Shown here: one piece after another, positions 111-10,285 of the stretch
Numbering within the stretch: position 1 is the stretch's first letter
How the letters are laid out: each line of letters starts with the position of its first letter
Assembly (NCBI RefSeq): GCF_013033965.1
Contig: NZ_WQFE01000002.1
Location: 124,001 to 188,000, forward strand
DNA from: Ruegeria atlantica
Lineage (GTDB): Bacteria > Pseudomonadota > Alphaproteobacteria > Rhodobacterales > Rhodobacteraceae
Length of the DNA stretch: 64,000 bases
Reading direction: 5' to 3'
The notes under the pieces: model-generated
The model's database searches: none
Seen by the model: the letters and a program-made list of their open reading frames with translations, nothing else
Told to the model about the DNA's origin: nothing
Translations under genes and position numbers: made by a program

Positions 111-165
111 TTTCAGTTTTCACGTTTTCTGGCATAATACACAAAAAAAGCAGCAGGCAGTGAAC

Positions 166-684
166 ATGGATCGTCGAGCATTTGGATTGGGCGCGATGGC
201 AACGCTGAGTCTTTCAGCGTGTGCTTCGGCAAGCCCCAGATTTCTGACTTATGATGGGCCCGAAGTGACCTCTTTGGTCATCAACAAGGGCGCGCGAAAA
301 CTATATCTTCTGCACAATGATAAGATCCTGAAAGAATATAAGGTCGATCTTGGGTTTGCACCCAACGGTACCAAAGCCAAGAAGGGCGACGGACGCACGC
401 CGGAAGGCAGCTATCTGATTGATCGCCGCAATCCCAACAGCCGCTATCATCTGTCGCTGGGGATCTCGTATCCGAACTCTGAAGATATTGCGAAAGCAAA
501 GGCCATGGGCGTCGATCCCGGAGGAGATATCTTTATCCACGGACAACCGAACCGTCGAAAAGAGCGCAAGCGCGCCAAAAAGACGCCGGATTGGACCGCG
601 GGCTGCATCGCCGTCAAGAACGACGAGATGGAAGAGATCTATGCAATGGTAAACCGCGGGACGCTGATCACTCTGCGCCCTTAA
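166..684 (+). CDS. L,D-transpeptidase (YkuD domain), probable envelope lipoprotein
   Basis: This is a small YkuD-fold L,D-transpeptidase, an enzyme type that cross-links or edits peptidoglycan using a catalytic cysteine. The N-terminus is an export signal with a twin-arginine-like RRAF and a lipobox-like LSAC, so it is probably exported and perhaps lipidated. The YkuD core covers roughly residues 35-172: IFIHG supplies the conserved His, and DWTAGCIAV supplies the catalytic Cys in the short YafK-like form of the motif. Start: ATG 166 has AGGCAG 155-160 at proper spacing; a GTG at 160, two codons upstream, is possible. Its 3' end overlaps the convergent sulfotransferase gene by 17 bases. Confidence 0.85.
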   Translation: MDRRAFGLGAMATLSLSACASASPRFLTYDGPEVTSLVINKGARKLYLLHNDKILKEYKVDLGFAPNGTKAKKGDGRTPEGSYLIDRRNPNSRYHLSLGISYPNSEDIAKAKAMGVDPGGDIFIHGQPNRRKERKRAKKTPDWTAGCIAVKNDEMEEIYAMVNRGTLITLRP

Positions 685-2113
685 CCGGTTTCCAAGCCCC
701 AAACCCGAATTGCATATAGTCGCGCTGGTACGCTTGGGCTGCCAGCGTTTCCAACTTTTCGTCATAAACCTCAGCCAGCGAGTACGGAGTATCCGCTTCG
801 CTGAGTTCAGGTAAGGGTGGTGTCTTGTGCCCCATCCTTCGCGCCAGATCGGGCAGGGCGTCAGAGATTTCCTCTTCGCGAATGATTAGGTCTGGCAAAG
901 CAAATGCCGCCATCCCCTCAAGAGCCTGCGATTGACTGCACCATGCCGCATCCACGCGTATTGCTGTTTGCAGCGAAAGGTTCTGTCGCAGGAAGGTCAG
1001 GAACGCTGAAAACGCTTCGTAATGCTGCTCAACCGGGTAGTTGCCTTCGCGCAGCTGCCCAGGGATCGGAACCTTGAGCCGGTTGCGCAGGACGTGCCGG
1101 ATTTTCGGATACGCACCGGAACCTGTGTTGAGGATATGCCGGCTAAAAGCACCATGGGCGCGGGCCAATGGATGCTGGAGCACGGTGAACTTGCGATGCC
1201 CGGGATTGGATTGAAACCACCGACGGGTCTGCTTTCTGTTCTGATTGGTCAATAGCTGATCGACATCGACATGATCCAGCGCGGCCATCCACCTTGCGAC
1301 CGGGGCTTCCATTCCTCCGCGTATCGGCATGTACATCAGCGGCGTCTTTGGCGTGGCAACATAATTGGCCACCAGAGGGCGACGACGCGGTTCAAAATTC
1401 GGTGTGCTGTGCAAGTTGAAGCTGTCGATCTGCGACAACGCCTGCTCCATCTCATCCGGGTTTGTCACCTTTGCCAGCGCAGGTTCCGGATTTTGCGGTT
1501 TGAGCGTGTCATCGATTGCCGACAGCCTGCCAGACACACCTAACCATTTGGCAAGGCCATTCAGAAGGTGCACCTGACTGAGGTCGTCATATGTAATGTA
1601 AAACGCGGTCTGCCCGCTTTGCTGCAAACGCTGTGACAGCATGAGGTGAAATTCATGCTGCCGGTTCAGATATTTTACGAACGCTTCGGCATCGAACGTG
1701 ACCTGTGCTTCGCGACGGCGCTTGATGTTTTTCAGCTGCCACTGCTTGGTTTCCCGCGCGATGTTCAACGAGATGTAGCTGTCCAACGCGTTTCGGGTCA
1801 GAATGATCTTGGCGCAGCGCGGGTCATCCAAAGCAGGCTCTAACACGCGGGGATCATGTCCCTGAAAAAAGCGAAAGCCGTTCATCTCTCCGGGCGCCTT
1901 GCGGATCGCCTCCAGCAGTGTGGATGGGTCCCGATCCCGCTCTTCCACCGAGATGCCCAGCAGAGTGTCGGATTTCAGCCGCCCAATGAAATGGGGATTG
2001 AATGCTTCGCCATGGCTGGTGATACCTTCGATGGCGTTCAGGTTCGCCTCAAGCAGATTGGAACCAGTTCGCATGGCTGCAAGAATGATAAAATAGTCAA
2101 AGTTGGGAGTCAT
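668..2113 (-). CDS. Two-part sulfotransferase
   Basis: Probable PAPS-dependent sulfotransferase of 481 residues, about twice the usual size. The first half starts with FIILAAMRTGSNLLEANL, matching the 5'-phosphosulfate-binding loop of Stf0-like enzymes, and has a 3'-phosphate-binding type stretch (IILTRNALDSYISL) near residue 105. The second half, from about residue 255, contains FTVLQHPLARAHGAF, which resembles the equivalent loop of carbohydrate sulfotransferases (Sulfotransfer_2 type). The gene is last in the cysQ-kdsB-galE-glycosyltransferase run, 6 bases after the GT14 gene, so its acceptor is probably the glycan made there. CysQ at the head of the run would remove the PAP it releases. 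Whether both halves are catalytic is unknown. Confidence 0.75.
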   Translation of the reverse strand: MTPNFDYFIILAAMRTGSNLLEANLNAIEGITSHGEAFNPHFIGRLKSDTLLGISVEERDRDPSTLLEAIRKAPGEMNGFRFFQGHDPRVLEPALDDPRCAKIILTRNALDSYISLNIARETKQWQLKNIKRRREAQVTFDAEAFVKYLNRQHEFHLMLSQRLQQSGQTAFYITYDDLSQVHLLNGLAKWLGVSGRLSAIDDTLKPQNPEPALAKVTNPDEMEQALSQIDSFNLHSTPNFEPRRRPLVANYVATPKTPLMYMPIRGGMEAPVARWMAALDHVDVDQLLTNQNRKQTRRWFQSNPGHRKFTVLQHPLARAHGAFSRHILNTGSGAYPKIRHVLRNRLKVPIPGQLREGNYPVEQHYEAFSAFLTFLRQNLSLQTAIRVDAAWCSQSQALEGMAAFALPDLIIREEEISDALPDLARRMGHKTPPLPELSEADTPYSLAEVYDEKLETLAAQAYQRDYMQFGFGAWKPVKGAE

Positions 2114-2119
2114 AGGGCT

Positions 2120-3820
2120 TTACTGCACCAGATAGGGTTTTCGGTACGGCCGTATCCGATTGGTGAAACTGTCATCCGGTGGGAAATCGCCCATAAGATA
2201 AGGATGCATGCCCTGATTCTTGAGGTTTTGCAGAAACTGGCCGAATCCGGTCAGATCCACCATTTTCGGCGCTTCGGTCAGGTGGCTGGTCTGCACGGTT
2301 CCGGCATCCTCGACCACGGCCTGCAAAGGCTCGACCGGGGATTCTACGAACTCTGCCAAAGTCCAGGTGCGCAAGCGCGCTTTGGTCCAGACAGAAGACA
2401 GGATTTCCAGCTGCTTGGTTTCGATCTGCTGCAGTCGGGCGGCCTCGGCCCGGATATCGGCAAAGTTCAAATTGGATCGAAACAGCGGGATCGCCCATGC
2501 GCCGGTAATGACAGATATCTGCGCGTTCTTGTCCCGGGCCAGGAACCAGTTGATTTCTTGCGTGTCAGCGGGGCCGAACTGAAAACACTGTTTCTCGCCT
2601 CGCGTGTTCCAGATCAGGTTCGAAACGAATGCCGTTGGGTTGTAGTCTCGCAGCTTTGCGCAATCGCTGAGGCCGCCGTTGACTATGGTCTCTCCGCCGG
2701 CGAATTCAGCCCGTTGCGGGCCAAACAGATGTCCATGCACGCGCGCGCCAGTGATATTGGCCAACCAGGGCTCGAAATCTTCGAACACTTCGGTAAAACC
2801 CTGAAAGACCGAATACGGAAATGACGTCAGGCCGTTTTCGTTGCCGTGCCTTGGAAAACGACTTTGCATATACAACCCGTCGCGCCCGCGTGTGCGCCGT
2901 TCGACCGCTTTGGAAAACACCCGGTCAATCTTGCTCGGGTTGGGTTCAGCGGGTTTCATGGCACCGGCCTGGTCGGTCAGAAAGGCCTGATACAGGCGGT
3001 TCGCGTTGGGCCAGATTTTGCGGGCTACGAAGCAATCCGACCTGCGCAGGAGCTGCAGGTGATCGTCGTAGAAAATATGCGGACGACCCTGGTAGTCGAA
3101 CTTGGACAGGGTCAGAGAGCGGCTTTCGATATGAGTGGAATACAGGCGCGTCAGCGTCTGGAAGTAACTCTCGTCAGGAATCCAGACGCGCCGGAAATAC
3201 CGATCATAGGTCGCGCGCTTCGGATCCTGCAATATGGCAGACAGCGTTTGTCGGGTCAGGCACCACCACTGGCTACCCATATGCGGCACAAGCCCTTCGG
3301 GTATATGGCGACGAATGCGCAATGCGCGTTGCAGTTTCACGTAGGCATCAAACAGCTTGCGGTTTTTGCGCCACGAGAACGGAAATCTCAGGGTAAAACG
3401 CTCTTGATCCAGGCCGCCGATAGTCCAGCTGACATCGGAGGTTGTGGCGCTTTCGATAAAATCAACGCGCGGGCGGTCAGAGAGATATGTGACCAGTTCA
3501 TCCACCGGTCGCAAGGGAAGGCAGGCCCCAGACGTCAGGAAGACATGGCGCACATCGGGAAACACCTCAAGCATCAAGGCGGCAGCAGATTGCGAGGCGG
3601 CAACTATGCCCCAACCACCCCAGTTGCAGACATGGCGTTCAGAAAAACGGATCAGCGGATCATCGGAACAGGCGGCTACGAACTCTGCATAGACCTTATC
3701 GGGAACTTTCCGGTCCACGTGGATCACCACAGGACACCCTGACGCCGTCCAGTGACGCGCCACTTGCCCGGCCCGGTTCAGTGCGGTGTGGACCAACATA
3801 ACGATGCCCAGGTTGCTCAT
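2120..3820 (-). CDS. GT14 (Branch / core-2 type) glycosyltransferase with extra C-terminal domain
   Basis: The first 270 or so residues match the Branch family (GT14: beta-1,6-N-acetylglucosaminyl- or xylosyltransferases). Visible are the N-terminal MLVHTALNRAGQVARHW strand-helix, VVIHVDRK, FLTSGACLPLRP and GSQWWCLTR, all in the usual family order. Residues of about 330-560 form a second domain (RFPRHGNENGLTSFPYSV, GAWAIPLFRSNL) of the kind seen attached to Branch enzymes in Rhodobacterales, with no known function. The start overlaps the stop of the upstream glycosyltransferase by 4 bases (ATGA), so the two are translationally coupled. There is no signal peptide or membrane helix, so it is a cytoplasmic, nucleotide-sugar-using enzyme. 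Donor and acceptor are unknown. Confidence 0.75.
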   Translation of the reverse strand: MSNLGIVMLVHTALNRAGQVARHWTASGCPVVIHVDRKVPDKVYAEFVAACSDDPLIRFSERHVCNWGGWGIVAASQSAAALMLEVFPDVRHVFLTSGACLPLRPVDELVTYLSDRPRVDFIESATTSDVSWTIGGLDQERFTLRFPFSWRKNRKLFDAYVKLQRALRIRRHIPEGLVPHMGSQWWCLTRQTLSAILQDPKRATYDRYFRRVWIPDESYFQTLTRLYSTHIESRSLTLSKFDYQGRPHIFYDDHLQLLRRSDCFVARKIWPNANRLYQAFLTDQAGAMKPAEPNPSKIDRVFSKAVERRTRGRDGLYMQSRFPRHGNENGLTSFPYSVFQGFTEVFEDFEPWLANITGARVHGHLFGPQRAEFAGGETIVNGGLSDCAKLRDYNPTAFVSNLIWNTRGEKQCFQFGPADTQEINWFLARDKNAQISVITGAWAIPLFRSNLNFADIRAEAARLQQIETKQLEILSSVWTKARLRTWTLAEFVESPVEPLQAVVEDAGTVQTSHLTEAPKMVDLTGFGQFLQNLKNQGMHPYLMGDFPPDDSFTNRIRPYRKPYLVQ

Positions 3821-4839
3821 GCCCAGTTTCCTTTCGACATGAGGCCCAGAATCTCAAGCTGCCGCCAGTTGATATAGGATTCCGATTTGTCGCACCAAAA
3901 CTCTGGCATGTCCGCCAGGTGTTTCGCATAGGCGCGATATTCGCCCGAGCTGCGGTAGTGCTGTCCGCGCTCCATCTCTTCCTGGGCTTTTTCGCCCAGC
4001 GTGCTGATGAGTTTGGCGTGCAATAGCGCACCACTTGCCTTTTCGCCCCCCCATTCATCATAGACCTGGTTCAGCCCGCGTGGCAGCAGCGCATGGGTCG
4101 AGCTGACATAGACATAGCGTTTGTCCCATTTCACCAATGGGATCTTGTTCAGCGCAGGTGCTTTTTTGGGTTCGTCCCTGAAGAAAACGCGCGCGCGGGG
4201 ACCGCCTTGGATCCAGAGATTTCCGTAAGTCGGGTTTTTCGTGATCGTGTAATTCCCCGCATCAAACCAATTGGCGATGTCGAACGGGTTTTGTCCTTCG
4301 GAATAGACTGCGTCTTCCACCGGTCCTTCAGGATACATGTCGATTAGCATCGCGCTGAAGCTGCGCACGGCGCAACCGTCCAACCAGTCGGTCAGGGCCC
4401 GGATTGGGCGTGTGTCGCAAAACGGGTAAATGAAGAATTCGTCCGGATCGACTGTCAGAACCCAGTGCCGGTGTGCAAACTTTCGCAGCAGGTAGTTTGT
4501 CCAGTCCACCCCAAATGACGCACGCCTATAGCTTGCATCGGCACGCCAGACCGACACATCGGGTTGGCCTGCCAGATACTCAAGCGACCCGTCGTCGCTG
4601 GCGTTATCAACGAACAGAAAATGGTTGATACCCAGTTGCCGGTAGTAGTCCAGAAAATACGGCAGGCGGATTTTCTCATTCCGTATCACGCTGATCAGCA
4701 GGATGTCTTTCCGTCGTATTGAATTTGTATTTACGGAAACGGGAACAAGGTCGCGCCGCTTTCGAAGGCAACGTAATATACGGCGCTTGCGCCGCAATCT
4801 CATTCGGTATGAATCCAATAGGCCCACGCGACTGCCCAA
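3817..4839 (-). CDS. Glycosyltransferase family 2-like protein, paralogue 1
   Basis: GT-A fold glycosyltransferase of the Glyco_tranf_2_4 kind. ISVIRNEKIRLPYFLDYYRQLG and FLFVDNASDDGS form the nucleotide-binding first half, and VLTVDPDEFFIYP is the DxD-like metal site. Later blocks (MYPEGPVED, GNLWIQGGPRARVFF, LNKIPLVKW) are shared almost position for position with the next gene at 4951-6057. The start is uncertain: TTG 4839, GTG 4827 and ATG 4803 are all in frame. The paralogue keeps the basic YRLRLKR segment just before the catalytic domain, so a start upstream of ATG 4803 is more likely. It overlaps the GT14 gene by 4 bases. Confidence 0.75.
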   Translation of the reverse strand: MGSRVGLLDSYRMRLRRKRRILRCLRKRRDLVPVSVNTNSIRRKDILLISVIRNEKIRLPYFLDYYRQLGINHFLFVDNASDDGSLEYLAGQPDVSVWRADASYRRASFGVDWTNYLLRKFAHRHWVLTVDPDEFFIYPFCDTRPIRALTDWLDGCAVRSFSAMLIDMYPEGPVEDAVYSEGQNPFDIANWFDAGNYTITKNPTYGNLWIQGGPRARVFFRDEPKKAPALNKIPLVKWDKRYVYVSSTHALLPRGLNQVYDEWGGEKASGALLHAKLISTLGEKAQEEMERGQHYRSSGEYRAYAKHLADMPEFWCDKSESYINWRQLEILGLMSKGNWA

Positions 4840-4950
4840 CCTTTGTTATTTACGCGAGCGTGCCCGGTGCCTGGACAAGCCAGAGTGGTGCCGGGCAATT
4901 GCCGTTTTATGCCATTCTTTCATCTTTCGAAGCAACGACTTTAAAAACCG

Positions 4951-6057
4951 TTAGTTCGAGTTGTGACCTTCCCAGTCGATCGTTCCCATCAGACCTAGTG
5001 TCTGCAAAAATCTCCAACTGGTATATAGTTTGGAATCCGGCGTCCACAAAACGGGGCGATCCATGATGCCGTCATAGTAGCCTGCAAACTGTTCGGGATC
5101 GTGAAAATGTTGCCGGCGCGCTTTCTCAATCTTTGATTTTTCCACAACTTCCGGCAGGAATTTTGTGTGCAACAATACGCCGGAAGGGGCAGTGTCGCCG
5201 GGGCCTGCGTAAGTGCTATTCAGATGGCGTGGCAACGCGGAATGGCACGAATTCACATAGGCAAAGCGCCGCGACCATCGGACCAGCGGGATTTTGTTCA
5301 GTGTGGGGGATCGGCGAGGGGTATCGGCAAAGAACATGCGTTCGCGCGCGCCGCCCTGCACCCACAGGTTGCCCATCGGGCTTTGCCGTTGTGCCCGGTA
5401 AGGACCGGCGTCAAACCAACCCACCAGTTCCGTCGGATCGGTCTGAGGGTCGTAACTTTGTTCCGCCAGCGGGCCTTCGGGATAAAGATCCAGCATCAGC
5501 GCGCCAAACGCGGCACGCTCCCGATCATCCAACCAGTCCGTCAGGTCGCGCAGGGGCCGGGTGTCATGATCAGGGTAGATCAACAGCTCATCCGCATCGA
5601 CCATCAGGGTCCAGTGGTTGTGGCCATAGCGCATTTGCAACCAGGTCAGCCAATCCAGCCCATAGCGTGACGCGCGGTAGCTGTCCGGGGTCCGCCACAG
5701 CGACACGTCCGGTTGTTCCCTGAGATACGGCACCGTGCCGTCATTGCTGCTGTTGTCGACGATCAGAAAGTGATCGACCCCCAATGCCCGATAGTGGCGC
5801 AGGAACCAGGGCAGGCGGGTGATTTCATTTCGCAGCGTGGTGAAGGCCAGAATGTCGCCGGGTTTGATGTTCCCAGTACGGTCGATCAATCCGGACAATT
5901 GATGGCGGCTGCGAAAGGATCGCCACAACAGCCGCTGTCGTTTCAGCCGCAACCGGTATCTTTGCACCCATGAAATGGGCGGAAGTGTATCTTCCTCTGT
6001 ACCAGTCACCACGGGCTCATTTTTCGTAGTTACCGTTTTGGTGCCATCGCCACGCAT
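4951..6057 (-). CDS. Glycosyltransferase family 2-like protein, paralogue 2
   Basis: Second copy of the same glycosyltransferase type. TLRNEITRLPWFLRHYRALG and FLIVDNSSNDGT make up the nucleotide-binding half, VDADELLIYP is the DxD-like site, and LDLYPEGPL, GNLWVQGGARERMFF and LNKIPLVRW follow. A basic helix precedes the domain. ATG 6057 overlaps the end of galE by 41 bases; a GTG near 6014, just after the galE stop, is an alternative start. The two paralogues are similar along their whole length yet clearly diverged. This suggests an old duplication, with each copy adding a different sugar or linkage. Confidence 0.75.
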   Translation of the reverse strand: MRGDGTKTVTTKNEPVVTGTEEDTLPPISWVQRYRLRLKRQRLLWRSFRSRHQLSGLIDRTGNIKPGDILAFTTLRNEITRLPWFLRHYRALGVDHFLIVDNSSNDGTVPYLREQPDVSLWRTPDSYRASRYGLDWLTWLQMRYGHNHWTLMVDADELLIYPDHDTRPLRDLTDWLDDRERAAFGALMLDLYPEGPLAEQSYDPQTDPTELVGWFDAGPYRAQRQSPMGNLWVQGGARERMFFADTPRRSPTLNKIPLVRWSRRFAYVNSCHSALPRHLNSTYAGPGDTAPSGVLLHTKFLPEVVEKSKIEKARRQHFHDPEQFAGYYDGIMDRPVLWTPDSKLYTSWRFLQTLGLMGTIDWEGHNSN

Positions 6058-7000
6058 CGGCAATCATCGTCTCTAACGTGGATCTTTCCGGGGACCAGCC
6101 AAGCTCGTTACCTGCACGAACAGAACCCGATACCAGCTTGGTGCAATCCCCCGCCCGGCGTGGCCCGATCGCGAAAGGCACGTCGCGGTTGGTAACGGCT
6201 TTGGAATGGCTGATCACCTCCATCACCGAAAAACCCGATCCGGTGCCAAGGTTGAAGATGCGGCTGCCTTTGCCTTGCTCCAGCCAGTTCAGCCCCAAGA
6301 CATGGGCATCGACCAGATCGCAGACGTGCACGTAGTCGCGAATGCAGGTGCCGTCCGGAGTATCGTAATCCGTCCCGAAAACAGTCAGCCCGTCGCGCTT
6401 GCCGTCGATTGCGTCCAGCATCAGGGGCACAAGGTGGGTTTCGGGGCGATGAAACTCACCAACCTCGCCATCGGGGTCCGCGCCCGCCACGTTGAAATAC
6501 CGAAAGATCACATGGTTCAGCCCGTGCGCCGCCTGAAAATCGCGCAGGATATCTTCGATGGCACGTTTTGAGGCACCATAGGCGTTCAAGGGCAGTTGCG
6601 GTGTGTCTTCGTCCAGAACGACGTTGTCATGCTCGCCATAGGTGGCGCAGGTGGACGAGAACACAAAGTTCAGACACCCGGCGGCCACCGCGGCCTCGAT
6701 CAGGTTCAATGATCCGGTAACGTTATTGGACCAATATTTGCCGGGCTCGGACATCGCCTCACCTACTTGGCTGAGGGCGGCAAAGTGCATAACGGCCTCG
6801 GGCTCGTATTTGGCAAACACCTCATCCAGCCGGGCTCGATCCAGCAAGTCGCCCTGTTCGAAGGGACCGAATTTCACCGCGTCCTGCCAGCCGGTTACCA
6901 GATTGTCGAAGGTTACGGGCGTGTACCCGGCCCGGGACAGCGCCTTGCAGGCATGAGATCCAATGTACCCGGCGCCGCCGGTGACAAGAATATTTTTCAT
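6017..7000 (-). CDS. galE: UDP-glucose 4-epimerase
   Basis: Extended short-chain dehydrogenase that interconverts UDP-glucose and UDP-galactose (or the N-acetyl forms). The N-terminal NILVTGGAGYIGSH is the NAD-binding loop; SSTCATYG and the YGASK motif (Tyr and Lys) are the catalytic residues, and FRYFNVAGAD and DGTCIRDYVHV are GalE signatures. The length of 327 residues is typical. ATG 7000 was chosen because GGAACG lies 7 bases upstream; a TTG four codons further up is less likely. It sits between kdsB and the glycosyltransferases, so it probably supplies UDP-galactose to them. Confidence 0.93.
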   Translation of the reverse strand: MKNILVTGGAGYIGSHACKALSRAGYTPVTFDNLVTGWQDAVKFGPFEQGDLLDRARLDEVFAKYEPEAVMHFAALSQVGEAMSEPGKYWSNNVTGSLNLIEAAVAAGCLNFVFSSTCATYGEHDNVVLDEDTPQLPLNAYGASKRAIEDILRDFQAAHGLNHVIFRYFNVAGADPDGEVGEFHRPETHLVPLMLDAIDGKRDGLTVFGTDYDTPDGTCIRDYVHVCDLVDAHVLGLNWLEQGKGSRIFNLGTGSGFSVMEVISHSKAVTNRDVPFAIGPRRAGDCTKLVSGSVRAGNELGWSPERSTLETMIADAWRWHQNGNYEK

Positions 7001-7069
7001 AATTCGTTCCAAATTGTGGTGCCGCGTCCAGTTAGACGTCGTCCTGACAGAAGTGCAGGGGAAAAAGGG

Positions 7070-7870
7070 TCAATCCAACCCCATCGCGGCCATCATTTCT
7101 TCGAGCTTCGGCACATCCTGCGGATTGTTCAACTCCCAGAACTGGCGCCCCTTGGCCTCGACCTCAACGCACAGAACTCTGCGACCGTTCTCCATGAAGC
7201 GTAGCTGTTCCAGCCCTTCCAGCTGCTCTAATGGTCCCACCGGCCAGGTCGAATAGGCAGCCAGAGCATCGGGGCGATAGGCGTAGACGCCGACATGGTG
7301 GAAGACCGGCGTCTCATCCTCTCCACCGTAGGTTTCGGCGGTGAACGGGACGACCTCTTTCGAAAAATACATGGCACTGTGATCAGCTGCGAAGACGGCA
7401 GTGGTGCCACCAACGCGCCCGTGCTTGCGGTCGTTCAGCAGGCTGTTCAGTGCGTCGCCATCGCAGCGCAGTACAGGTGTGGCCACGCCTGCCTCGGGGG
7501 CGGCGCGAAGGCCGGCGATCAGGTCTTCGACAAACCAATGCGGCGTCAGCGGCGCGTCGCCTTGCAGGTTCACCACGATGTCAAAGCCAGCGCCAAGGTT
7601 CGCATGCGTCTCAGCGCAACGTTCGGTGCCATTGCCGCAGCTTTCCGAGGTCATCACCACCTCGGCTCCGAACCCTTCTGCCACATCGCGGATGCGGTCG
7701 TCATCGGTGGCAACAACCACTTTGTCGACACCCGACACCGAACAGGCCGCGCGCCAGGACCGCTCGATTAAGGTCATCGCGGTGCCATTGGCTCCGGTCA
7801 GCGGAACCAGTGGTTTGCCCGGATAACGGGTCGAGGCATAGCGGGCGGGAATGGCTATCAGAACAGACAT
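7070..7870 (-). CDS. kdsB: 3-deoxy-manno-octulosonate cytidylyltransferase (CMP-Kdo synthetase)
   Basis: Activates Kdo as CMP-Kdo for LPS inner core or for the Kdo linker of capsular polysaccharides. The N-terminal IPARYASTRYPGKPL is the KdsB nucleotide-binding signature, followed by VVVATDD, CGNGTERCAE, VVNLQGDAPL and HHVGVYAYRP. In E. coli-type enzymes the motif is VQGDEP, here LQGDAP, a variant inside the nucleotide-binding site. Length 266 residues. Its start codon shares one base with the cysQ stop (TGATG), so the two are coupled. Being placed with glycosyltransferases and a KpsM-like permease suggests it serves the local glycan; a second kdsB for LPS could exist elsewhere. Confidence 0.88.
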   Translation of the reverse strand: MSVLIAIPARYASTRYPGKPLVPLTGANGTAMTLIERSWRAACSVSGVDKVVVATDDDRIRDVAEGFGAEVVMTSESCGNGTERCAETHANLGAGFDIVVNLQGDAPLTPHWFVEDLIAGLRAAPEAGVATPVLRCDGDALNSLLNDRKHGRVGGTTAVFAADHSAMYFSKEVVPFTAETYGGEDETPVFHHVGVYAYRPDALAAYSTWPVGPLEQLEGLEQLRFMENGRRVLCVEVEAKGRQFWELNNPQDVPKLEEMMAAMGLD

Positions 7871-8667
7871 CAGGCCTCCTTCAGGTCAACGCCCGGAGCG
7901 TAGGCGATAAAGAACGGGTTTGCATAGCCGTCCTTACCATATGTCAGCGGCGCGTGGTCGTCGAAGCGTACAACCTTGCCGCCTGCGCCTGCCAGAACAG
8001 CGTGGCCAGCAGCGGTGTCCCATTCCATGGTGCGACCGACGCGGGGGTAGAGGTCGGCCTCGCCGGTGGCGACCAGACAGAATTTCAACGACGAGCCTGC
8101 GCTTTTGCTGTCCTGCACCTGATACTTGTTGATGTAATCCTCAGTGGCCTGATCGCGATGTGACTTCGATGCGACGATCAAAAGTGCGGAATTGTCCGGT
8201 TTAGAAACCGAAATTGGCTCTAAATCGCCAATTTGATCCTTTTCCAGTGCGCCGGTTTCCTCGACCGATAGACCGTCCGCTTGTGTGTAGAACATACGAC
8301 CCTTTGCCGGGGCATAAACAACACCCCGCGTCGGCACACCATTTTCGACCAGTGCGATATTCACAGTGAAATCACCACGCCGGTTGATGAATTCTTTGGT
8401 GCCGTCCAAAGGATCGACGATCAGAAACGTGTCGCCCTTTTCAGAATGTGAGGCAGCCTGTTCTTCGGTCACCAGCAGAATATCCGGGAACGCTGCGCGC
8501 AAACCTGCCGAAATCAGAGCATCCGCGGCCTCATCCGCTTCGGTAACGGGGCTGGCGTCGGATTTGACTTTGACGTCGAAATCATCTGCCTCGTATATCT
8601 GCATAATCGTGTCCCCGGCTTCTAGTGCAAGACGTCTGATTACGGGAATAAGGGCGTCGTAGGTCAC
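7870..8667 (-). CDS. cysQ: 3'(2'),5'-bisphosphate nucleotidase (PAP phosphatase)
   Basis: Inositol-monophosphatase superfamily enzyme that hydrolyses 3'-phosphoadenosine 5'-phosphate. VTEADEAAD, LLVTEE, DPLDGTKEFINRRGDFTVNIAL and WDTAAGHAVL are the metal- and substrate-binding motifs of CysQ, and DGTKEF in particular marks CysQ rather than inositol phosphatases. The GTG start at 8667 is preceded by GGAG at proper distance and gives 265 residues; the open frame extends 87 codons further upstream without family-like sequence. It heads the glycan operon that ends in a sulfotransferase. PAP is a strong product inhibitor of sulfotransferases, which explains the linkage. Confidence 0.9.
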   Translation of the reverse strand: MTYDALIPVIRRLALEAGDTIMQIYEADDFDVKVKSDASPVTEADEAADALISAGLRAAFPDILLVTEEQAASHSEKGDTFLIVDPLDGTKEFINRRGDFTVNIALVENGVPTRGVVYAPAKGRMFYTQADGLSVEETGALEKDQIGDLEPISVSKPDNSALLIVASKSHRDQATEDYINKYQVQDSKSAGSSLKFCLVATGEADLYPRVGRTMEWDTAAGHAVLAGAGGKVVRFDDHAPLTYGKDGYANPFFIAYAPGVDLKEA

Positions 8668-8790
8668 AAAAATGCTCCGTTGCTGTAGTTTGTTGATCGA
8701 AATCCTTGTGGGCCTTATGCTGCGCCGGTTACGGAACGGCAAGAATTTCGTGAAAGATTGCAGGCAATTCAGCGGGAAAGAGAGCACTGA

Positions 8791-9612
8791 GTGTTTTATT
8801 TTAAGCGAAATCAGACGCTTCTGGGCGGTGCCTTCACAACTGCCGAGCTTATATATCATGCGGTCGTGCATGGGATACGATCGAGACATGCGAATGCTGT
8901 GATCGCGATCATTATAAATATCGTACAAATTCTCGCACTTGTGACCGTATTTTACTTTATCTTGTCAATGCTTGGTACCCGGGTCGCCAAGATCAGAGGG
9001 AACTTCATCCTGTTTTTGTTGTCAGGCGTTTTTCTGTTCCTGACCCACATCAAAGCTGTCGCGACTGTTGCTGGTGTCGGCACCGGGAACAACCCGATGA
9101 TGTTGCATTCTCCGATGAACATGATGGTGGCATTGTTGGCCACCGCCTTTGGGTCGCTTTACACACAATTGGTCTCAATCCTTGTGATCCTTTTCGCCTA
9201 CAGCGTTTTGGTTGAACCCCTAGAGATCCAAGACCCGGGCGGGGCATTCTACATGCTGATCCTGGCCTGGTTTACGGGATGTGCAGTGGGTGTTGTCCTT
9301 ATGGCGCTAAAGCCGTGGTTCCCTGGCACTTCTGAAATTTTGAAAAACATGTACCGGCGCATGAATATGTTGTTTTCCGGCAAGATGGTTGTCGGGAATG
9401 CGCTGGGCGGCTTCTTGCTGAGTTTTTTTGCATGGAACCCGTTGTTCCATGTGATTGATCAGTGCCGTGGTTTTGTCTTTCGGAACTACTATCCGCGAAA
9501 TTCCAGTTGGGAATATGCACTGTGGGTTGGGCTGGCTTTGCTGATGATCGGATTGCTGGGGATTTTCTACACCCGTCAGCACGTCTCGGCCAGCTGGGGT
9601 GCGCGTCGCTAG
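8791..9612 (+). CDS. ABC-2 type polysaccharide export permease, KpsM-like
   Basis: Membrane protein of 273 residues with six predicted helices (around residues 38-60, 70-90, 108-140, 152-172, 205-222 and 243-262). The last third has WNPLFHVIDQCRGFVFRNYYP, the NPLFH...R pattern typical of ABC-2 permeases that export capsular or O-antigen polysaccharide (KpsM/Wzm), followed by a final helix and a short basic tail. It starts at GTG 8791 after an AGAGAG at 8780-8785. It diverges from cysQ and the glycan operon. No ATPase partner (KpsT) or outer-membrane exporter lies in the window, so it must pair with one encoded elsewhere. Its last 4 bases overlap the alkB end. Confidence 0.65.
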   Translation: MFYFKRNQTLLGGAFTTAELIYHAVVHGIRSRHANAVIAIIINIVQILALVTVFYFILSMLGTRVAKIRGNFILFLLSGVFLFLTHIKAVATVAGVGTGNNPMMLHSPMNMMVALLATAFGSLYTQLVSILVILFAYSVLVEPLEIQDPGGAFYMLILAWFTGCAVGVVLMALKPWFPGTSEILKNMYRRMNMLFSGKMVVGNALGGFLLSFFAWNPLFHVIDQCRGFVFRNYYPRNSSWEYALWVGLALLMIGLLGIFYTRQHVSASWGARR

Positions 9613-10211
9613 TTCGCGACCCGTAAAGTCAGGTTGATCCGTCCGCCTTTGGGCAAAAGTTTGGATGACCCAAAACGGATGCGGTCCACCCCGTGATAGG
9701 TCAGGCGCGCTGGTCCGCCCATGATCACAACGTCGCCCGAGTTCAGCCAGATGGATTCCGTCTTGCCGCCGCGCGACGTGTTGCCGATGCGAAAAAGGGC
9801 ATCATCGCCCAGCGACACCGACAGCACTGGCCATGAAAAATCGGCTTCGTCCTTGTCTTGATGCAGACCCATGCGTGCGCCCTCGCCGTAGTAGTTGATC
9901 AGACAGCAATCGGGGTCGTGTTCATTGCTGGCAAGATTGCGCCAGATTTCAAGAATGGGTGCGGGAATGGCGGGCCACTCCATCCCCTTCGGATGCTGCG
10001 CCTGATATCGGTATCCCGCTTTGTCGGTAACCCAGCCAAACGCCCCGGCTGAGGTCATGCGCACGGACATTTCTTTGCCGGACGGCGTGGTGGGCCGAAA
10101 CAGGGGTGCGGATTTCAGAATCGGGCGCAAAGCCTCAATCAGCTGCGTTTGTGCCGCAACGTCCAGATAGGCTTTTCTGATATCAAATCCGCGCAAGAGC
10201 AGCCGCGCCAT
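9609..10211 (-). CDS. alkB: DNA alkylation repair dioxygenase AlkB
   Basis: Fe(II)/2-oxoglutarate dioxygenase that directly reverses N1-methyladenine and N3-methylcytosine in DNA. Visible are INYYGEGARMGLHQDKDE (iron ligands His and Asp), the third ligand His in LTYHGVDR, and the 2-oxoglutarate-binding GGRINLTLR near the C-terminus. The length of 200 residues fits bacterial AlkB. ATG 10211 was chosen because GAGGAA precedes it. It is divergent from dnaK and convergent with the KpsM-like gene. No Ada-type regulator is adjacent. Confidence 0.92.
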   Translation of the reverse strand: MARLLLRGFDIRKAYLDVAAQTQLIEALRPILKSAPLFRPTTPSGKEMSVRMTSAGAFGWVTDKAGYRYQAQHPKGMEWPAIPAPILEIWRNLASNEHDPDCCLINYYGEGARMGLHQDKDEADFSWPVLSVSLGDDALFRIGNTSRGGKTESIWLNSGDVVIMGGPARLTYHGVDRIRFGSSKLLPKGGRINLTLRVAN

Positions 10212-10285
10212 TGAAGATTCCTCAATCCTTGCCAAAACCTTGCCCAAAAAGGCCGCAGATTCCCGAAAACCTGCCTTTTAGACCG

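Follow-up and report, generated by a model that had tools for sequence, protein, structure and literature searches.

A gene locus of Ruegeria atlantica with a two-domain sulfotransferase probably belongs to a Kdo-linked capsule system of the Rhodobacteraceae

The window, a stretch of 64,000 nucleotides of Ruegeria atlantica, contains a locus which we consider to be, with fair confidence, the part of a capsule system that builds the chain, decorates it and exports it through the inner membrane. The capsule would be of the ABC-dependent, Kdo-linker (group-2-like) type, sulfated by the N-terminal domain of a sulfotransferase (ST) and widespread in Rhodobacteraceae; the place of cysQ in the locus would be older than, or independent of, the sulfation. 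This reading starts from what was observed at the level of sequence: which genes are there and in what order, which of them occur together, the motifs, and the fold class found for the N-terminal domain.

Profile searches and a reading of the window have shown seven tightly packed, co-directional genes between 668 and 8667, all on the minus strand. An earlier note had described this run from cysQ to the sulfotransferase; the genes are real and their order is kept in relatives. The run is headed by cysQ (7870-8667), coding for the 3'(2'),5'-bisphosphate nucleotidase that removes PAP (TIGR01331, 271.8 bits, cut-off 228.8), followed by the CMP-Kdo synthetase gene kdsB (7070-7870), which is above the cut-off for NF003950 (346.9 bits) and below it for TIGR00466 (139.1 bits, cut-off 155.2), and the UDP-glucose 4-epimerase gene galE (about 6017-7000; TIGR01179, 418.5 bits, cut-off 262.3). 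Then come two glycosyltransferases with PF13704 matches, GT2a (about 4951-6012) and GT2b (about 3817-4827), which are 46% identical across 312 residues, a GT14 (Branch) domain fused to DUF5927 (2120-3820; PF02485 and PF19349), and finally ST (668-2113), assigned from profile, motif and fold evidence. Note that the starts of galE, GT2a and GT2b were chosen among in-frame candidates: for galE we took the ATG at 7000 (the listed ORF begins at 7012), and for GT2a the GTG at 6012 is likely.

Most junctions are indeed overlaps or short gaps, as had been claimed: cysQ and kdsB overlap by 1 base, GT2b and GT14 by 4 bases, and the gaps are 4 bases between galE and GT2a and 6 bases between GT14 and ST. 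The exceptions are kdsB-galE (69 bases) and GT2a-GT2b (about 123 bases), and since these gaps are so long, given the chosen starts, both junctions are loose enough to hold internal promoters. Promoter and terminator scans gave a signal at or below chance. No sigma-70-like site was found by the promoter scan in the intergenic region upstream of cysQ (8668-8790), where the promoters are presumed to lie. On the other side of this region, on the plus strand and divergent from cysQ, there is a gene for a KpsM-like ABC-2 polysaccharide exporter permease (8791-9612, start codon uncertain). Its matches to the NCBIfam models VexB (E 1.5e-9) and KpsM (E 4.1e-7) are weak, both far below the cut-off, and no Pfam match was found at E<=0.001. 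This gene, the DUF5927 part of the GT14 protein and the second domain of ST are additions to the earlier description. No match to an APS kinase or an ATP sulfurylase (E<=0.001) was found in a scan of ten frames between 160 and 10247.

The gene run is not a product of chance, since its order is conserved in relatives. GT2b and GT14 accompany ST in all 100 loci of relatives, and ST follows GT14 at a gap of at most 14 bases wherever this could be measured (82/82). Among the 86 ST loci with at least 9.5 kb of upstream DNA, 85 have both cysQ and kpsM, kpsM is always divergent, and there are no strand exceptions; in the remaining locus (L059) both genes are missing despite enough upstream DNA. A search for this order in other Rhodobacterales, which had been suggested as a check, thus gave a positive answer. 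In many relatives a GT4 takes the position of GT2a, and many have GalU as well. One of the relatives with the locus is R. pomeroyi SZCCDBG043 (L075). DUF5927 occurs in 26 of 26 genomes with ST and in 2 of 23 without it. In these two, G171 and G057, the capsule glycosyltransferases and cysQ are present and ST is missing, so sulfation is not essential to the capsule system.

Genes of the KpsC/KpsS family (PF05159) were found in all 46 genomes with ST that were tested. Among the 23 genomes without ST there were 6 with strong matches, or 10 at E<=0.001 with weak matches counted. With kinship ignored, Fisher's test gives p = 1.7e-11 for strong matches and p = 3.0e-8 with weak ones included; tree-aware pair tests of ST against KpsC/S did not reach significance, with too few supported pairs. 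PF05159 alone is no marker of this capsule, since three genomes (G083, G094 and G101) carry strong matches without ST or DUF5927. In the R. atlantica genome itself, KpsS, an OPX/KpsD-like gene and KpsC lie at C1:12060-16569; the PF05159 matches (C1:12303-16419) fall into one KpsS-sized and one KpsC-sized frame, the KpsS reaching 232 bits with the equivalog NF050054, below its cut-off of 600, and the OPX/KpsD-like protein exceeds the PF02563 cut-off. KpsT-KpsE-like genes lie at C1:363092-365372. The best match of the KpsT-like ATPase is VexC (98.2 bits against 313), and the KpsE-like protein has 178.9 bits with TIGR01010 (cut-off 437.5), both well below the cut-off. The genome therefore has frames for both Kdo transferases of a KpsC/KpsS-dependent capsule, and the run itself has, with kdsB, a gene for the supply of CMP-Kdo. 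The co-occurrence of KpsC/KpsS-family genes with ST suggests a capsule with a Kdo linker and export by an ABC transporter. The earlier idea of a locus for a surface glycan, with a sulfotransferase that probably uses PAPS, was supported, and can be refined to a capsule of this Kdo-linker, ABC-transporter type.

We then looked at loci without ST. In 12 of 22 such loci that hold cysQ, the gene adjoins kdsB, galU and/or galE, and no kpsM, GT2b, GT14 or ST was found at E<=0.01 with 7 KpsM, 2 GT2b, 2 GT14 and 2 ST queries. Some of the 12 have room for a divergent kpsM that might have been missed; this looser search found none. For example, G051 lies within a clade of the rpoB tree (support 100/100) together with the ST-bearing G150, G121 and G034, and G063 is paired at 95/95 with the ST-bearing G007. 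Both keep cysQ-kdsB-galU at the locus, and in both kpsM, GT2b, GT14 and ST were not found there. In several of the loci without ST, lptB and kdsD border on the region.

The last observation would fit a reading in which ST acts on another surface molecule, the LPS core or O-chain or a lipid, with the capsule genes as mere neighbours. Kdo is a sugar of LPS as well, and the one solved sequence relative that we found for ST is named LPS sulfotransferase NodH. However, the tight coupling of ST to GT14, the presence of KpsC/KpsS in every genome with ST and the joint absence of kpsM, GT2b, GT14 and ST from the 12 loci all speak against it, and we regard it as unlikely.

Slightly less probable still is an operon dedicated to sulfation, with cysQ brought to its head in order to remove PAP as ST makes it. 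The position of cysQ with its overlap into kdsB, the near-constant company of cysQ, kpsM and ST, and the cysQ inside the sulfated-capsule cluster of Cobetia marina (available text of PMC11766843) are all in its favour. The ST-less loci that keep cysQ beside kdsB, galU or galE weaken the idea that cysQ serves ST, as do G171 and G057; moreover, cysQ is matched in three genomes (G029, G048 and G125; 97-99% complete) without an APS kinase match. As the only gene above the CysQ cut-off (TIGR01331) among the five Inositol_P genes of the genome, cysQ probably serves every source of PAP. We were thus not able to support the claim that cysQ is built in for ST; it looks rather like an older housekeeping neighbour than like part of a dedicated sulfation kit. 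Nor is the arrangement as little described as had been thought, considering the Cobetia cluster just mentioned. APS kinase was rejected as a discriminating partner of ST, since it is nearly universal (own genome and 184 of 198 genomes); half of the 14 genomes without a match still match ST, a point against the sulfated-capsule reading, all seven being less than 97% complete, two of them at 96%.

Judged by its sequence, ST is a fusion of two sulfotransferase-related domains. For the copy in the window there is no Pfam match at E<=0.001; its N-terminal half scores 18.9 bits with PF00685 (cut-off 22) and 17.2 with PF13469 (cut-off 27), both under. The N-terminal domain (residues 1-234; 1412-2113, minus strand) has MRTGSN, R107 and S115 invariant in 100 of 100 copies, which we take to be the PAPS loop and the 3'-phosphate motif. 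It was found to have the sulfotransferase fold, in a fold search that covers residues 4-239 only and says little on the C-terminal half. In summary, this domain is probably a NodH/Stf0-like, predicted PAPS sulfotransferase. It has the PAPS loop, the 3'-phosphate motif and the fold in common with the enzymes of PDB 9vki and 1tex; their chains of about 240-265 residues, however, match the N-terminal half only, whereas ST adds a degenerate Sulfotransfer_2-related domain.

This C-terminal domain (residues 250-475; 689-1366, minus strand) is, by profile comparison, a homologue of Sulfotransfer_2 (PF03567). At E<=1 the model matches the ST of 26 of 34 relatives, with 2.1e-10 as the best value, though not the window copy, and five of seven full-length relatives exceed its 22-bit cut-off; hhalign against PF03567 proteins gives 98.4% (E 7e-15) for the C-terminal half and 6.5% for the N-terminal half. 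We do not file it as an active member because the PAPS loop lysine and the 3'-phosphate serine, K16 and S82, invariant in 14 PF03567 proteins, are not kept. In 100 ST domains the lysine column, placed by eye in a loop region outside the hhalign alignment, holds I, V, L, M, A or T (in 23 a K follows at the next position), the loop seldom ends in S or T (1 and 3 of 100), and the serine column holds S in 21. No sequence match was found for the C-terminal profile in the PDB. An origin of both ST halves by simple duplication is unsupported (hhalign of C against N halves, 22.5% over 48 columns). DUF5927 as a further sulfotransferase was rejected too (GT14-DUF5927 against PF03567 proteins, 0.3%), and it found no sequence match among solved structures. 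The genome has three further PF13469 and one PF03567 sulfotransferase genes, which counts against the main reading. That the whole of ST is a pseudoenzyme with a structural or regulatory part in the capsule machine, as the lost PAPS-binding residues of the C-terminal domain and the failure to pass any Pfam model could suggest, is very improbable, since a dead enzyme needs none of the N-terminal residues that are fixed in all copies.

For the sulfated Kdo-linker capsule, what we infer about its product, sulfation and acceptor, and about the part played by the C-terminal domain, is as follows. KdsB would supply the CMP-Kdo for the linker, to be made by KpsS and KpsC, whose genes lie elsewhere; UDP-galactose would come from GalE, with GalU in many relatives. 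The chain would be made in the cytoplasm by GT2a or GT4, GT2b and the GT14-DUF5927 enzyme, and sulfated there from PAPS via the N-terminal domain of ST, while the degenerate C-terminal domain probably binds the acceptor or stabilises the fold. Export would need KpsM from the window and KpsT, KpsE and KpsD from elsewhere, and CysQ would hydrolyse cellular PAP, including that derived from ST.

In E. coli, group 2 capsules (kps) combine KpsM/T/E/D-like export and KpsS/KpsC linker enzymes in one contiguous cluster, whereas in Ruegeria they are spread over three sites and the gene of the inner-membrane permease is next to cysQ. Cobetia marina KMM 1449, for which a sulfated capsule was demonstrated chemically, likewise has Kps export genes, KpsS/KpsC, glycosyltransferases, a sulfotransferase and cysQ, but all in one cluster and with the PAPS synthesis genes cysN/C and cysD between the kps operons, whereas the Ruegeria locus has none; that cluster is reported from strains of three Cobetia species (available text of PMC11766843), while the Ruegeria-type locus is found across many genera of a single family. 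Vibrio sp. KMM 8419 also has an ABC-exported sulfated capsule with a sulfotransferase and nucleotide-sugar genes, but its cluster includes cysNDC and lacks kpsC; its authors saw nothing similar in public genomes (available text of PMC11641403). The capsule that serves as receptor of the R. capsulatus gene transfer agent was considered and dropped: its genes (rcc01081-01086, wza/wzb/wzc) are described as a different set (available text of PMC10218006), and we found no link.

A broader claim seems to us attractive but somewhat short of an even chance: that most Rhodobacteraceae share one sulfated Kdo-linked capsule, made with a lineage-specific chimeric ST (an active NodH-like domain and a dead Sulfotransfer_2 acceptor binder), and that capsule, linker and export genes disappear jointly from several sites, leaving cysQ-kdsB-galU in place. 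The architecture of ST with its twin domains is directly testable. The relatives without ST are a warning that cysQ and a neighbouring sulfotransferase need not form a dedicated pair. The Rhodobacteraceae, or roseobacters, live on surfaces in the sea and are abundant there; a family-wide sulfated capsule, if true, would bear on the adsorption of phages and gene transfer agents, on attachment to algae and on the marine pool of sulfated glycans.

The seven genes that the earlier note had read as one minus-strand run are indeed found together, from 8667 down to 668. The products of cysQ, galE and kdsB (the last with a subfamily model) exceed curated cut-offs, and the two PF13704 glycosyltransferases, GT2a and GT2b, share 46% identity across 312 residues. 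The GT14 protein is a fusion of a Branch domain with DUF5927 (2120-3022, minus strand), for which a search of solved-structure sequences gave no match. The sulfotransferase (ST, 668-2113, minus strand) shares 89% identity with its counterpart in R. atlantica CECT 4292. As read from the sequence, cysQ and kdsB overlap by 1 base and GT2b and GT14 by 4 bases; the gaps are 69 (kdsB-galE), 4 (galE-GT2a), about 123 (GT2a-GT2b) and 6 bases (GT14-ST). A divergent KpsM-like gene with weak VexB/KpsM similarity (8791-9612, plus strand) had been overlooked. Its 3' end overlaps by 4 bases with an AlkB-family 2OG-Fe(II) oxygenase gene (9609-10247, minus strand). At the other end, a convergent YkuD (L,D-transpeptidase-like) gene (160-684, plus strand) overlaps the 3' end of ST by 17 bases, with a relative downstream in 21 of 80 named loci.

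ST matches were found in 163 of 198 family genomes (E <= 0.001), 156 of them strong and seven weaker than 1e-60. Note that the label Rhodobacteraceae for this group was taken from the named loci, and that NCBI uses Roseobacteraceae or Paracoccaceae. A class-wide sample of 289 genomes gave 6 matches at E <= 1e-15: four full-length ones from the same family, and two from other families that cover the N-terminal half only. Gene order was read in 100 ST loci, that is, the best 80 named of 578 found and 20 picked for low identity. The search in relatives that the earlier note had proposed shows that the order is conserved: GT14 and GT2b occur with ST in all 100 loci, and the GT14-ST gap is at most 14 bases wherever it was measurable (82/82). 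Of the 86 loci whose sequence extends 9.5 kb or more upstream, all have GT2a or a GT4, 85 have cysQ and kpsM (the exception being L059), 67 kdsB, 65 galU and 62 galE, with zero strand exceptions. Two loci from records named Nocardioides marinus (L061) and Cytophagaceae bacterium (L110) carry the same Rhodobacteraceae locus; the L061 cysQ places beside Leisingera, and both records are probably mislabelled or contaminated.

We searched for PF05159 (KpsC/KpsS) in 26 hand-picked, well-assembled genomes with ST and in 23 without it (all 35 such genomes less 12 below 97% completeness). The domain is present in 26 of 26 and in 20 of 20 further low-identity genomes with ST (46/46), versus strong matches in six of the 23 (G057, G069, G171, G083, G094, G101) and weak ones in four more (G017, G063, G090, G125). 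With kinship not corrected, Fisher p is 1.7e-11 for strong matches and 3.0e-8 with weak matches added; tree-aware tests had 2-5 usable pairs, zero of them opposite in direction, too few for significance. DUF5927 occurs in 26/26 and 2/23 genomes, respectively, the two being G171 and G057, which have the capsule locus without ST. G069 has a KpsS-KpsD-KpsC set and no close cysQ match, so its locus may be absent from the assembly. The other three genomes with strong PF05159 matches, G083, G094 and G101, lack both ST and DUF5927, which speaks against a strict link. In the window's own genome, KpsS, OPX/KpsD-like and KpsC genes lie together (C1:12060-16569), as do KpsT-like ATPase and KpsE-like genes (C1:363092-365372).

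Mapped on an rpoB tree covering 29 genomes, the ST label must have changed 8 times or more, and well-supported branches force 4 of these changes; 67 of 500 shuffles were equally low, so that the label's clustering does not go beyond that of many shuffles. G051, without ST, falls within a 100/100 clade with three ST-bearing genomes, and G063, also without ST, pairs with the ST-bearing G007 at 95/95; both keep cysQ-kdsB-galU.

The reading of cysQ as a PAP-removal gene built in for ST was not borne out. In 12 of 22 cysQ-bearing loci lacking ST (L127-L134, L136, L137, L139, L173), cysQ still lies beside kdsB, galU and/or galE, and frequently the set is flanked by dnaK/alkB at one end and by HPF-lptB-kdsD at the other. 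None of the 12 has a match to kpsM, GT2b, GT14 or ST (E <= 0.01, several queries). Some stretches stop at contig ends (L134 just past galE, L139 at galU, L132 about 2 kb beyond cysQ), so the evidence that ST and DUF5927 are missing from those sides comes from whole-genome searches. L121 and L122 have capsule genes and cysQ without ST, and in the remaining eight cysQ lies elsewhere or at a contig end. Three genomes that are 97-99% complete (G029, G048, G125) have a cysQ match of 51-70% identity and no APS kinase match. Because these three keep cysQ, and because those 12 ST-less loci as well as G051 and G063 keep its neighbours, the position of cysQ is independent of ST. In five ST-less genomes (G054, G017, G083, G090, G174; L138, L140, L141, L174, L175), the cysQ relative instead stands no more than about 3 kb from the APS kinase gene.

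Most likely, CysQ clears PAP cell-wide. The own genome has five Inositol_P genes, cysQ alone passing the CysQ cut-off, and four sulfotransferase-family genes besides ST; holo-ACP synthase is also a producer of PAP. Three of the four other sulfotransferase-family genes belong to PF13469 and lie on the window's own contig (C12:286528-291803 and C12:386805). Another, L180 (C4:120336-121064), is a single-domain Sulfotransfer_2 gene with an intact PAPS loop; it has strong matches (E <= 1.3e-33) in 20 of 20 Rhodobacteraceae genomes tested (L179-L198), 79-91% identical in the six aligned, and judged by sequence it is another conserved sulfotransferase.

Sulfated capsules with Kps genes have been published for Cobetia (PMC11766843) and Vibrio (PMC11641403), the Cobetia cluster being one that contains cysQ; a Tritonibacter genome has kpsS, wza and a kdsB gene named (PMC11225332); and for an R. 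pomeroyi kpsS gene (SPO1757) a slight change in fitness (-0.18) is given from a single mixed culture (PMC10041152). We infer that SPO1757 is the partner of the present locus. A search of the literature, mostly outside subscription journals and by title or abstract opening, gave nothing among the papers listed on the present locus, DUF5927 or the fused sulfotransferase.

In the mechanism that we propose, the chain would be built in the cytoplasm on a Kdo linker from UDP-galactose/glucose, ST would then sulfate it with PAPS as the donor, and KpsMTED would export the sulfated chain. The earlier proposal of a sulfated surface glycan pathway is partly supported, without its purpose-built PAP removal and in a narrower form, the probable product of the locus being a sulfated capsule tied to KpsC/KpsS. 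Relatives differ in GT2a, GT4, an additional GT2 and galE/galU, so the polymer itself is probably not the same in every species, with GT2b, GT14-DUF5927 and ST as the constant part.
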